From positions 61,667,898-61,731,897 of the forward strand of contig NC_079487.1 in NCBI RefSeq assembly GCF_020520425.1: 64,000 nucleotides of DNA. The letters are read 5' to 3'. The number at the start of each line of letters is the position of its first letter. Position 1 is the first letter of the stretch. Origin of the DNA: Spinacia oleracea. Lineage: Eukaryota > Streptophyta > Magnoliopsida > Caryophyllales > Amaranthaceae. The notes under the pieces were generated by a model. That model did not search any database. It was not told the DNA's origin and saw only the letters and a program-made list of their open reading frames with translations. A program made the position numbers and the translations under genes. Shown piece by piece: positions 25,403 to 30,714 of this stretch.

Positions 25403-25929
25403 CACTAGTAGAAAAAATATCATTTGCAGCGCGCATAAAAGGGGCTTTTTGCAGCGTTTTTGAGCGCTGCAATTGTGATGGCTGCAAATAATGGACTTTT
25501 ATTTGCAGCGAACATAAACGCTGCAAAAAACCATTAATAACAGCGCATGGTGTTTCACACGTGCTGCAATTAGTGTCTATTTGCAGCGCTTTGATGTGCA
25601 TAGGCATTGAAAAAAGAGATTTTCAAAGGGAATTTTCTGCCACAATTTACAACTTTGGTTTAACAGTGCGCGCTGCAAATAGTGCGTTTATTTTACAAAA
25701 AAAATAAATTCCTATATTAATTCTTTGGTACTACTACTCGGTACTAGCCTCCATAATTATGTTCTAACATCCATAAATACATAAATAACATCCACAAAAA
25801 GTAGTGCCAATGTGATAAATTTGAAATACATTGGTGAATTAACTTGACCTATCAGAAACATGTTAATTACAATACTTAAAGAATGTTCTGTAGCTCACTG
25901 CTTGCTCGATATTAGTGAGAAATCTTCCC

Positions 25930-26845
25930 ATGCCACCCTCCTCACAATCTCGCCGAGGTACATACCTGATATTGTTTTCTCAAATATCTGTAACAACAGT
26001 ATGCAAATACTTACCAGAGTCCAGAGATTTAAAAGCATAAGTTCTGATGCTAAGCCACTAAATACCTGCTCACCAGGATTGATGCTAGCAGCATCCATTC
26101 CCCTATCATATTCAGTCAACAGAAGTCCAGTCGAAAATGCTCCCCATTCATTGATATAGAGATTACAGATTACGTAGTGAAAAAAAAAAGTTAGTGAGAA
26201 ATCTTTAAGTGAAGTGATTCTGGCTTACAGTTGTTCCCGACTTTGATATTTGGCCAGGCAGCTTAGGAATGGCATCCGTCCTCTCCACATAACACGCATT
26301 GGTTCCTGTTCCAAAGATCACAGCGATCATGACATCATACTAAATTTGAACATCCAAAAGCAACCAGAATAGAGAAAACAATATCAGGTATGTACCTCGC
26401 CTATGCATTTTTGATATTAGGATCACATACAAATGTTGACCAGAAGCATACAAAATTTATGTACTTAGATAATAAAAAGATAATCAACAAAGAAACAATT
26501 TAGGAAATTTTTAAAACTAAACCCTAATCGGCATACATCAATTGATTTCGTACAAAATTTCAAATAAACAGATCTTTGGCAATTAATTCAATGATCTATC
26601 AAACTAATCAATCAAATTGGCAATTGAATTTTTTTAATAAAGAATTGGTAAAAATTAAGATCAAACACAAAAGCAAGTTGAACAAAAACAATTCACAAAT
26701 CAAACATAAAACTTAACATCGAAAATGTAGGGTGCCGCAATTTCCAACTGTATCGTTAACCTAGTACTGTTAACCTAACTGTATCAAACATAAAACAGTT
26801 CCCAGTACTTCGCTCCCGCTAAATTTCCAACTGTATCGTTAACCT
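25930..26845 (-). pseudogene. Captured hexokinase gene fragment
   Basis: Minus-strand pieces in gene order are VNDTVGNLAGAKYW (about 26842-26795), then VIFGTGTNACYVERTDAIPK with LPGQISKSGTT (about 26320-26231). The next is [20 protein letters not shown] plus [10 protein letters not shown] (about 26156-26066), and the last is [18 protein letters not shown] (25987 to about 25934). These match the phosphate-2/adenosine and C-lobe region of plant hexokinase (VNDTVG, GTGTN, NxEWG, [19 protein letters not shown]). Introns with GT/AG junctions remain between pieces (CAG|GTATTT at 26066, ACAG|ATATTT at 25987), so capture was from genomic DNA. The N-terminal catalytic half and the end of the gene are absent. 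It is not functional. Confidence 0.88.
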
Positions 26846-27239
26846 AACTTGTTTCATTAGTAAAGAGCAAGCACTCTTTCCTAATGCTTGCTAAAAGGCT
26901 ACGAATTTATGAAAGCCAAACATTCAAGATTCAACACATACCAAAGTTGAGACTTGCATTTCTAGCCCTCATTTATTCATTGACCCGCGTTGACCATAAG
27001 CTATTGCACCGAGATCAATTAGTGAATGCTGCGAATGAGGAGTTGGTAATGAGGTTTTTTCTACTAGTGGAAGTTCTAAAAACAAGTTCACGTGAGTCTA
27101 GGAACTTGGAATCTTTTTCTTATCAACCACCAATATTCTTCTTTTAAGCCCTAAACTAAAATTTAGCTTGAACAAACTTCTAAAACAATAAAAAAAAACT
27201 TCGCAAAAGTTGTTCAATTATGTGAAAAGGCAGAATGCT

Positions 27240-27646
27240 GTACCAGACTGCCCTTTCTTTGGATCCTTGAAGAGTTGAATATTGTTTAAAATCTCCGCCA
27301 GGGCGATGTACATCAAACACCCTCAGTGTTTTGTTGTACCCATCAAATATCCTGCAGGAATTGAGTAACATGAGAAAAGATGAGAATAAGACAAACCGCT
27401 CAATCATTTCTGCCAAATCATGTAAACATTGCACACAATTCAGGTACAGTCCTCGAATTAGATGGTGTTCAACACTTGAATTTGACAAGATACAAATACA
27501 TGAAAGTAAAAACCAGAAGAGCAAGGCAACAAAGAATTCTCCAAGCATATGATGGTATATACTTGGTTCCAGTAGGGTTGAAAGCAATTGAAAAGGCTGC
27601 AGTAATCTCATTCATAGCATCAAAAGCTCGATATGTACATCGTAAC
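27240..27646 (-). pseudogene. Captured TCAB1/WRAP53-like WD40 gene fragment
   Basis: Two minus-strand exons are present. The first is 27646-27563 (YRAFDAMNEITAAFSIAFNP, TGT) and the second 27351 to about 27240 (KIFDGYNKTLRVFDVHRPGG, DFKQYSTLQGSKE). They join across a GT/AG intron that splits the Lys codon. The string matches what I recall of plant homologues of telomerase Cajal-body protein 1 (NPxGxKIFxGYNKxxRVFDxxRPG, then xQGxKxGQSG). The expected GQSG after SKE is shifted by one extra A, giving RAVWYS instead. Only about 60 codons of a protein of some 400 residues are present. Confidence 0.75.
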
Positions 27647-28591
27647 TGAAAAACTAATCCAAATAAGAAAACTATAATGACCAGAGGAAGGCAGAAACCA
27701 TAAATTCAGTAATCCCAAACCTTACAGCAATCCCAATCTTTTACACAGATAATTCAGCAATCCCAACTTACAAGCAATAACAAACTCCTTAAAACTAGCA
27801 AAAATCAGATCAGCTCAGCTTATTTACATGAAATAAGGTTAGGAAAAGCTAGCAGAATAGCAAATCAGTTCAGAACGCAGTACAATAGAGAAACAAATCA
27901 GAGCAGCAAATCAGATGATTCCTTACTAGCTGTAATGACTCATTAGTTGTATGGGAGTTGTATGGGGTTAGAAAGGATCACGGGTCCAGAGGGACTTCTG
28001 ATGTTTGATGCTAACAACATCAGGATTTCCATCCAAGCTAATAAAGTAAAGAAGATGGAGTTGCACGGGATTCAATTACACAAAAATTGGCGGTCGGTAA
28101 TTTATAACTACAAATGAAACTGTAGTAAGTTTAAAGTTCTAAATAAACTTTGGAATTTTTACTTTGATTCCAAACAAAAATGGATAAGGTAATAAGAATT
28201 AAAGTTCTTATACAATACAGAAGGTAGAGTAAAATTTATTATAACTCCTAAAAATATGCACGCACACAAGCACAAGACACACATGCACACTCAAACATTA
28301 GAAGAGTACACACTCTCAGATTTTCTTCACAAAAGAGTGCAACCAAAAGTAGAATATAAGATGATTGCACATTAGTGAAAGTTCTTGTCTTTTTTTCAAA
28401 AACTTCGATGATGGAAAAATGATAACAATAGCTACTTTACTTGTGACTCATGAACAAAGACGCTCAATGTTTGACTAAAAGCTATGCAAAGATGATCCTA
28501 AATAATCGAATGTATCATTTTAGGAGTAACATCTGGATGACATGTCACTACATGAGTACTAAATACACAATTTTCTGAAACAACTAAGTAC

Positions 28592-28934
28592 CTAGAAGGA
28601 AGGACAGCCTGAGGAATCAAAGGGGTATATGATGTTTCCCGTTCTGTCGCAAGACGTTGAGCCTTCTGGAATTCCTTCAAAACTGCTTGGAAATCTTTTA
28701 CAAGTTTTGCTTCAACAATCTTCTTGTTTGCCTGGATAAATGGAAGGAAGATGAAATCAAATTTTGGCTCGGGAACGCATTAATACCCAATTGAGGAAGG
28801 TATGCAGTCCATAAATCTGAAGTGTTGAAAATATACTTACACTGACATTATTGCCATGATCTGTGTCACTTGCTTATTTGAGTTTATCTGAAGTATCCTT
28901 TACTAATTGCCCAATATGTAACCTTGTCTTGTGG
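28592..28934 (-). pseudogene. Captured SYP2-type syntaxin (Qa-SNARE) gene fragment
   Basis: Exon 28934-28841 encodes HKTRLHIGQLVKDTSDKLK, an in-frame stop, then ASDTDHGNNVS. Exon 28731-28592 encodes ANKKIVEAKLVKDFQAVLKE and FQKAQRLATERETSYTPLIP plus QAVLPS. Splice sites are GT/AG. The second exon matches the linker of plant vacuolar/prevacuolar syntaxins (SYP21/SYP22: AKLAKDFQAVLKEFQKAQRLAAERET). The SNARE helix and membrane anchor are missing. Confidence 0.88.
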
Positions 28935-29837
28935 CTATTAAGAGGATGAAACAAGTATCAGAGGATATTAGTTCAAAATGGAATAAACAGTAAACACCAC
29001 ATTGCAAAACAAGAAGCACTGGATAGTCCTTATGAGTTTTTAAAACAACCAGCCTTATAAACCATGTACAGACAACACAGAGTATTACCCTAGGAATTCA
29101 GTTTAAGATAAACAAAGAAGGATGATGAGCATTGAAAGTGAAATAAGTTACAATCAACAAAAAAATTTGGGACAAGCACTGGAGAGTGGGATAAAATCTG
29201 TTGCATCAGCAACAAAATATTGTAACTCAACCATTTGAATACCACGTGAATGACTAGGATTGGAAAATTTACTCTTTCCGTTATGTAAAAAAAAGAGAAA
29301 GAATTCCCAATGGCAGCAGTTCATCTTTAAAGGATCTTTGCATAGATCAGACCTAGCACATTATCACAACCTCATGCAACTAAGAAAGTAGTTAAATAGC
29401 CAATTGAGTTCTAGGTCAATTGCTCTAAAGATGACCAAAATTCTGAGAAGACGTCCATCGACCAATCAAACAGAAATTCAACAGCAAGATAGAGTGACCT
29501 AATCACACATGGTGAACATCATGGTTTCTATAGCCTTGGCAAGAATACAACCAACTTACTCCCAACACAAAATACATCACTAAATCTAACCCAACCTAGC
29601 TCATCCAATCAAGTTATCTCATAAAACACAAAAGTTCAAGAACACTAAAGAATCAAGTTATCTCATAAATTCGGCTTGCATAAGTAACAAGATTTATTCT
29701 TACAACCACAACCATGACATGGTCTGCCATATCTCAATGGAAAAGCACATTAATTAAAAAAGAAAGATCTAAATCCACACAAATGAAAAAAAGAACCATA
29801 AAAGGTGACCTTTGAAGCATCAGGATTTGGAAACTCA

Positions 29838-30000
29838 CCCTAGTAGAGATCGGCGAGTTCTTCTTCTCCGTAGTTTTCGTTCTCTTTCGTTTGAGATTTT
29901 TGTGTAAAATCAAGAAAACCTACGAGTAAAATTGATACCAAAAATCACAGATCTGATAATAAAAGAAACCATAAAACAATTTATGATAACGACGAAATCC
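29838..30000 (-). promoter_or_regulatory. Possible captured 5' exon with splice donor
   Basis: On the minus strand a 5'UTR-like purine-rich stretch (AAAGAGAACGAAAACTACGG, then AGAAGAACTCGCCG) ends in a good donor (G|GTGAGT) near 29840. It lies upstream of the three captured gene pieces, in the same orientation. A role as first exon of a chimeric transcript is inference. Confidence 0.3.
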
Positions 30001-30714
30001 AACCTTAACGCTAAGAGTTGCTCGTACAATCTGCTACTGTACTAACCTAACAGTGGTATCACGAGCCTCTTATTAATTGCATGATCTATTATTGCTTAAC
30101 ATGGTTAAATTTTACAAATTTGCAAAGAATTAAAAGGGGTGATTAATTTTCGTAATTGTTAATTAATTGCAAATTGCATTTATTTAATTATATGTACGCA
30201 GTTTTTCGGCAGTTTCTTCGTTACTCAACCAAATCGAGTGATTTTTGTGTCAATTCCGCATGTAAAAGGGATTCTAAAATTCCCAAATTCGAAGCCTAAC
30301 TATGACTTTTCGGAGGTTTTAGTTTTTCAAACGCAAAAGTTTGTAATTTTAAGATGTTAAATTGAATATTTGCAATTCTTGTTGTTAAATCTTGAATTTT
30401 TTATTGACCTACTGTATATGTTTAACAAATTTGAATGTCTAAGCTTGTTAATTATACAACCTAATTTGTAATTGTAATTAATTTTTTGAAATTCGAATAA
30501 TTTAGAATTTGATTTGACTTTCATAATTAATTGACAATTTAATTAGGTATCCATGATTAAAAACCACCATAAAAATTGTTAATTTGTGATAAATTTTAAA
30601 TTTTCATGACCTAGATTTGAATCCATGTTAATCGGAAATTAATTGATTAATAAATTTTCGATTTTTCGCACTAAAATTATGAAATTAATATGATTTATTA
30701 ATTTGTCGTTAATT

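Follow-up and report, generated by a model that had tools for sequence, protein, structure and literature searches.

In the 64,000-nucleotide stretch of Spinacia oleracea DNA analysed here (contig NC_079487.1; called the window below), positions 25403-30044 constitute a Pack-CACTA element that lacks its right side and lies inside the 5′ long terminal repeat (LTR) of a retroelement. The element carries pieces of a hexokinase gene, a WRAP53/TCAB1 gene and a SYP2 syntaxin gene, and a second copy of its 15-nt end is found inverted in its interior, at 27055-27069. We consider it likely that this feature derives, by loss of its right side, from a non-autonomous CACTA element of 7.20-7.21 kb, in which the joint beside the WRAP53 piece arose from fusion of neighbouring elements. 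The features concerned are listed in order of position (L numbers denote loci elsewhere in the genome).

24036-25402, plus strand: 5′ LTR of the host retroelement, split by the element; it continues at 30043-30052
25403-25417, plus strand: left terminal inverted repeat (TIR), CACTAGTAGAAAAAA, with left flank GTT; the end is identical in L009 and L010
25403-25730, plus strand: left subterminal region with TTTGCAGCG-type repeats, direct and inverted, from a motif search
25925-26338, minus strand: first part of the hexokinase fragment, comprising three exon pieces and introns; donor L024 (C6:84.2 Mb)
26336-26799: segment splitting a hexokinase exon; resembles C1:118.1 Mb (L027) at 26336-26374 and 26397-26731, followed by filler
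26372-26399, plus strand: 28-nt inverted copy of hexokinase exon 25954-25981, a templated filler replacing 350 bp that are kept in L012
26739-26763, plus strand: 25-nt exact copy of hexokinase exon sequence 26822-26846, a templated filler at the second joint
26800-26969, minus strand: hexokinase fragment, part 2, upstream exon, adjacent to part 1 in the donor gene
26969-27069, minus strand: internal relic of a CACTA right end, with its TIR at 27055-27069
27070-27707, minus strand: WRAP53/TCAB1 fragment, two exons and intron sequence, beginning at the internal CACTA end; donor L021 (C6:57.65 Mb)
28137-29810, minus strand: SYP2 syntaxin fragment, exons and introns with an internal deletion; donor L016 (C6:149.24 Mb)
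29795-30023: segment resembling C6:129.0 Mb (L028), which looks like the 5′ end of a gene
30043-30044: deletion junction, where the element (..GTACTA) is fused to the final LTR bases (TAACCTAACA) with the 2-bp microhomology TA
37486-38866, plus strand: 3′ LTR, continuous across the position equivalent to the insertion site

Further copies were sought in the genome to which the window belongs (894 Mb, 242 contigs), and copy numbers are lower bounds, as the best 40 of 328 candidates were scored for the 4640-bp block and 40 of 586 in a further search. The entire block is present with 98% identity in at least two further places, C1:86.16 Mb (L009) and C4:97.47 Mb (L010), which have the same left end as the window copy and run about 2.55 kb beyond its break to a true right end, CTACTAGTG. 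Their termini, CACTAGTAG...CTACTAGTG, are CACTA terminal inverted repeats at both ends, and the two copies align end to end with 97.7% identity. L009 measures 7213 bp and is flanked by the target duplication TTT/TTT; L010 measures 7202 bp, with TTG on its left and, on its right, TT, to which the left end of a further CACTA element is directly joined. Duplications of 3 bp also flank the relatives L013 (TAA/TAA), L019 (ACT/ACT) and L015 (TCT/TCT), the last having one base changed in its right terminus. Pack-MULEs possess long TIRs and a 9-bp duplication and Helitrons neither TIR nor duplication, and both identities are ruled out by the CACTA ends and the 3-bp duplications of intact copies. The left end of the family occurs 115 times in the genome at no more than one mismatch, the reversed pattern not at all (0), and in the whole window TTTGCAGCG has 20 matches at the same tolerance compared with 8.85 expected, a number reached by none of 100 shuffles. 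The open reading frame (ORF) listing contains no stop-to-stop ORF of 150 or more amino acids inside 25403-30044, and the longest listed for the right part of L009 has 94 amino acids; judged by these ORF lengths, the Pack-CACTA is non-autonomous and without a transposase gene of its own. A search of plasmids gave no match.

The two CACTA elements at L010 (positions 9745-9770; C4:97480737-97480767) are separated by TT alone, and the 31-base pattern spanning this abutment has a single occurrence in the genome. Such an arrangement is one from which a fusion could start.

Partial relatives of the element are found at L011-L015 and L017-L019, where L011 and L012 form a single locus (C4:136.2 Mb) split by an LTR retroelement. 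Protein searches place hexokinase pieces (14 matches listed) in the window, L009, L010, L012, L013, L014, the donor L024 and one distant locus, WRAP53 pieces (16 matches) in the window, L009, L010, L012, L015, the donor L021, L022 and L023, and SYP2 pieces (8 matches) in the window, L009, L010, L011, L013, the donor L016 and two distant loci. All three pieces are thus united in four of the seven CACTA loci having any of them, namely the window, L009, L010 and L012/L011; in L013 hexokinase is combined with SYP2, L014 has a hexokinase piece alone, and in L015 a WRAP53 piece is accompanied by a short hexokinase stretch at the DNA level. The sequence examined for L012/L011 stops short of the right end of that copy, and a right end of L014 was not found with the terminus pattern used. 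Two stretches of about 1.39 kb at L012/L011, read as the LTRs of the interrupting retroelement, are 99.6% identical.

Domain and protein matches exclude chance similarity for the captured fragments. The hexokinase piece matches Pfam Hexokinase_2 (E=2.1e-31) and 46 distinct PDB sequences, the best PDB match of the TCAB1/WRAP53 piece is telomerase Cajal body protein 1 (E=6.4e-14), its Pfam WD40 match taken alone reaching merely E=0.16, and the SYP2 piece matches Pfam Syntaxin_2 (E=6e-10) and has no match in the PDB. A fourth fragment, FAHD1-like (fumarylacetoacetate hydrolase family), consists of three exon pieces on the minus strand, lies in the part of the element that the window copy has lost and was read in L009, where its spliced pieces match Pfam FAA_hydrolase (E=7.3e-22). 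Among three further ORFs of the right part, the best Pfam match, CbiK, has E=0.092 and stays under its cut-off. Donor exons were matched with protein probes, and by such matches each donor has exons beyond the captured piece and lies outside the element. The hexokinase donor L024 matches a plant probe, with gaps, between residues 24 and 492; the SYP2 donor L016 matches a SYP22 probe from residue 1 to 252; the WRAP53 donor locus (C6:57.645-57.655 Mb) has exons up- and downstream of the captured piece on one strand, with a stop codon within one downstream match; and the FAHD1-like donor L046 (C1:132.355 Mb) shows further exon matches. Because donor introns are present in the element, genomic DNA was captured, and processed copies derived from messenger RNA are excluded. 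Further WRAP53 pieces occur at L022 (C2:68.2 Mb) and L023 (C5:64.2 Mb); the 9 kb examined around each of them show no CACTA end.

The same-strand, intron-containing fragments of hexokinase, WRAP53 and SYP2, and the Pack-type capture of genomic DNA, had already been proposed in an earlier note made from the letters of the window, and both proposals hold. The other copies that it expected, with the three fragments and the same ends, exist as L009 and L010, and the contrary outcome that it named, fragments that never occur together elsewhere and came by separate insertions, is not what the genome contains. Parents that have additional exons by matches to the probes were likewise located, and the count of three gene sources is right for the window copy but falls short of the full element, which has at least four.

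The 5′ LTR of the host retroelement adjoins the left end of the element at window position 25402, and its partner LTR is uninterrupted there. A motif at 30054, beyond the 5′ LTR, is what we take to be a primer-binding-like site. GTT flanks the window copy on the left only, the right flank being deleted, and only the left outer CACTA end is present; about 2.55 kb of the element, including the right end, are missing together with 14 bp of the LTR. The two LTRs (24036-25402 and 37486-38842) differ at 50 of 1350 aligned positions, and a match to the Copia-type domain RVT_2 in one scanned internal ORF reaches 24.2 bits, under the curated cut-off of 31.6. Along their length, three consecutive parts of the LTRs differ by 6.2%, 4.2% and 0.45%, which looks as though one third had undergone conversion or recombination. 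With respect to the earlier note, the CACTA left end with its subterminal repeats is borne out, and so is the insertion into an LTR, whereas the descriptions of the retroelement as young and as Copia are rendered doubtful by the LTR differences and the weak domain match. Its view of 25403-30042 as a whole insertion does not stand, as the right edge is a deletion breakpoint, and in describing one perfect CACTA end it was correct for the left but overlooked the internal one.

The relic right end inside the window copy (26969-27069) is identical to true right ends of the family at 82 of 94 positions (L009), 82 of 94 (L010), 82 of 93 (L019), 77 of 95 (L013) and 79 of 100 (L015), and on these alignments the internal end is a real right end of the family. 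The inner 15-nt terminus is perfect in the window copy and in L012 and mutated in L009 and L010. In the 350 bp before the internal end, two TTGCA motifs are counted in all four copies, compared with five to nine at five true right ends (strands summed); TTGCAGC, which characterizes the left end, is missing at the internal end and at four of the five true right ends, L015 having one. WRAP53 intron sequence directly abuts the internal end in the window, L009, L010 and L012. The 19 bases after it in L012, GGAAGTTCTAAAGACAAGT, recur at 18 of 19 positions in the donor intron L021 and at 17 of 19 in L023, and in both loci 125 bp separate this stretch from the point at which the match to the element continues, AAGT standing at each edge. 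Insertion of a CACTA element into a WRAP53 intron, followed by a small deletion, would account for the match, the gap and the AAGT edges.

Other joints point to a different process. A segment of about 820 bp related to L027 interrupts a hexokinase exon, and the fillers of 28 and 25 nt at joints within the element are longer than any repeat in 30 Markov-generated sequences (longest, 16 nt). L027 matches L012 across the 350 bp that the first filler replaces, hence the element has lost this stretch, as opposed to L012 having gained it. Short repeats are found at several joints of the element. In plant repair, templated fillers are a mark of break repair with template switching, and we infer that such repair acted here. 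A further fusion point had been suspected at E4035-4076 (numbered on the full L009 element from its left end) from breaks in L011 and L019; it was dropped, for the SYP2 donor aligns across it in a single, gapped alignment.

Divergence was calculated as Kimura two-parameter (K2P) distance, with exons and introns mixed in the comparisons of fragments with donors. The window copy differs by 1.5% from L009 and by 1.7% from L010, and between the latter two the distance is 1.6% in the first 4.7 kb and 2.3% in the right part. At substitution rates of 7e-9 to 1.3e-8 per site per year, 1.5-1.7% between copies would correspond to a rough age of about 0.6-1.2 million years. For its right part, L019 shows distances of 2.3% to L009 and 2.6% to L010, yet L009 and L019 are just 84% alike at their left ends, so family members exchanged parts. 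Distances of the window copy, L009 and L010 to the donors are 9.0-9.7% for hexokinase (window to L024, 9.0%), 5.1-5.8% for WRAP53 (L021), and 5.4-5.7% and 11.8-12.0% in two parts for SYP2 (L016). The captures look stepwise, since these distances differ, and they point to an earlier capture of hexokinase than of WRAP53, consistent with a fusion, though the difference amounts to about two standard errors. The earlier note advised dating by divergence from the parent introns; the distances given here, over exons and introns together, cover all three genes, with two values for SYP2.

The preferred reading would begin with a CACTA element that already carried the hexokinase fragment and inserted into a WRAP53 intron. 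Transposase would then have paired the left end of this first element with the right end of another member, ignoring the element's own right end, and everything between would have moved together. WRAP53 exons and intron sequence would have travelled in this unit, the pieces of SYP2 and of the FAHD1-like gene may have come via the second element or through other events, and the relic right end at 27055-27069 would mark the fusion point. Break repair with template switching would next have produced internal deletions and short fillers copied from nearby sequence, before cut-and-paste transposition carried the unit to at least three places. The window copy subsequently lost its right third, with a few LTR bases, through a deletion at a 2-bp microhomology. 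The make-up of the element, its ends, the target duplications beside intact copies, the donors, the internal end, the fillers and the truncation are shown by the sequences; the fusion event, the order of these steps and break repair as a cause are inferred from them.

Several observations weigh against this history. The window copy and L012 retain an inner 15-nt end without any change, which point mutation therefore did not disable there, the presumed duplication GAA at the internal end is readable on one side only, and a first CACTA element by itself in WRAP53, with WRAP53 to its left and right, was not found. At L022, the third WRAP53 locus, the intron stretch has no match (best 11 of 19), and the real donor could be an L023-like sequence. 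As WRAP53, SYP2 and FAHD1 have their donors at separate loci, one fusion cannot supply all fragments, and for the two SYP2 values (about 5.5% and 11.9%) a single capture is no simple explanation. The contrasting ends of L019 argue that the element owes part of its present form to exchange with other members of the family.

Some of the same evidence would fit an origin in which all fragments were captured within a single CACTA element during error-prone filling of the gaps left by excision, the internal right end being a patch copied from a sister element. Templated fillers at joints, the L027-related segment in the hexokinase exon, the short joint repeats and the exchange between relatives speak for it, but the internal end comprises about 100 bp of right-end sequence that stop at the terminal nucleotide, exactly where the WRAP53 intron starts, as a copied patch rarely would, and we regard this origin as rather unlikely. 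Without the other copies for comparison, the two ends that the window has at 25403 and 27069 resemble those of a complete small element, so that one might suppose two insertions, a 1.67-kb CACTA (25403-27069) with hexokinase and an unrelated 3-kb insertion with WRAP53 and SYP2. The flanks GTT and GAA of 25403-27069 do not match, however, and the entire 4.64-kb block is present at two further places with different flanks and so moved as one, which leaves this supposition hardly credible. It is also very improbable that the window copy was never truncated and transposed as a unit bounded by 25403 and a cryptic end, TACTAGTG, losing a few bases on insertion. The breakpoint does fall inside TACTAGTG, which in L010 is the sole such octamer besides the true right end; yet the octamer is altered to TATTAGTG in L009, it is preceded by no right-end-like sequence, the right side shows no target duplication and lacks 14 bp of the LTR, and a plain deletion at 2-bp microhomology accounts for the joint. 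The truncated, probably fused CACTA element is thus the reading that we retain.

Two neighbouring features of the window may be added. An ORF at 62943-63908 on the minus strand encodes a CACTA transposase domain of the tnp2 type (Pfam Transposase_21, E=5.6e-76) and is part of another CACTA element, which could possibly act in trans. A word count over 58.0-62.9 kb for subterminal repeats of this transposase-bearing element yielded nothing useful. AAA+ ATPase genes (At3g28540-like, with AAA and AAA_assoc domains) are clustered at 7964-9118, 17474-18421, 19169-20308 and 48289-49350 and in their neighbourhood, with transposable elements between them.

Chenopodium and spinach belong to the same plant family. 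Jozin CACTA elements of Chenopodium have structured subterminal repeats and captured gene fragments (PMC8978399), and the spinach element resembles them in its termini (CACTAGTAGAAA...), its subterminal repeat structure and its captured fragments. The Jozin elements of that account have transposase domains and captured neprosin and AP2, and the word hexokinase is absent from its text (PMC8978399). The soybean CACTA element Tgm-Express1 (5.7 kb) contains five unrelated gene fragments (PMC1947982); it shares with the spinach element the CACTA superfamily and several unrelated host gene fragments with introns. Tgm-Express1, however, resides in an intron of flavanone 3-hydroxylase and its fragments are spliced into chimeric transcripts, whereas here we find a retroelement LTR, a truncated copy and a relic inner end at a joint. 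Maize Pack-CACTAs often hold DNA from several loci (PMC8903248), and in the neighbour-fusion model adjacent CACTAs move by their outer ends, the inner ends being lost by deletion or mutation (PMC8903248; PMC13317346). The Pack-CACTAs of Arabidopsis and maize and the present element have in common that they are non-autonomous, with TIRs and a target duplication, DNA from multiple loci and, on the reading preferred here, fusion by outer ends; unlike those, the spinach element keeps the inner end in four copies (as a perfect 15-nt terminus in two of the four), beside an identifiable host intron. Among the best-ranked records of a literature search with most subscription journals outside its coverage, no publication was apparent on CACTA capture in spinach or on these gene names with Pack-CACTA. 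As a kind, the element is known, and this member is apparently new; the earlier note's impression of an undescribed combination may hold for these genes but not for multi-gene Pack-CACTAs as such.

Capture of host fragments by DNA transposons has been argued from few examples, and this family offers intact, truncated and rearranged copies together with donors in one genome. Its relic inner end at a known host intron lets the fusion and break-repair models be tested joint by joint. Such copies are readily mis-annotated as hexokinase, WRAP53 or syntaxin genes. More tentatively, and at somewhat less than an even chance, the family may represent a step-by-step fossil of capture by fusion, in which the inner end would have been switched off by thinning of its subterminal repeats and not by loss of the TIR, with break repair as a second route in the same lineage.

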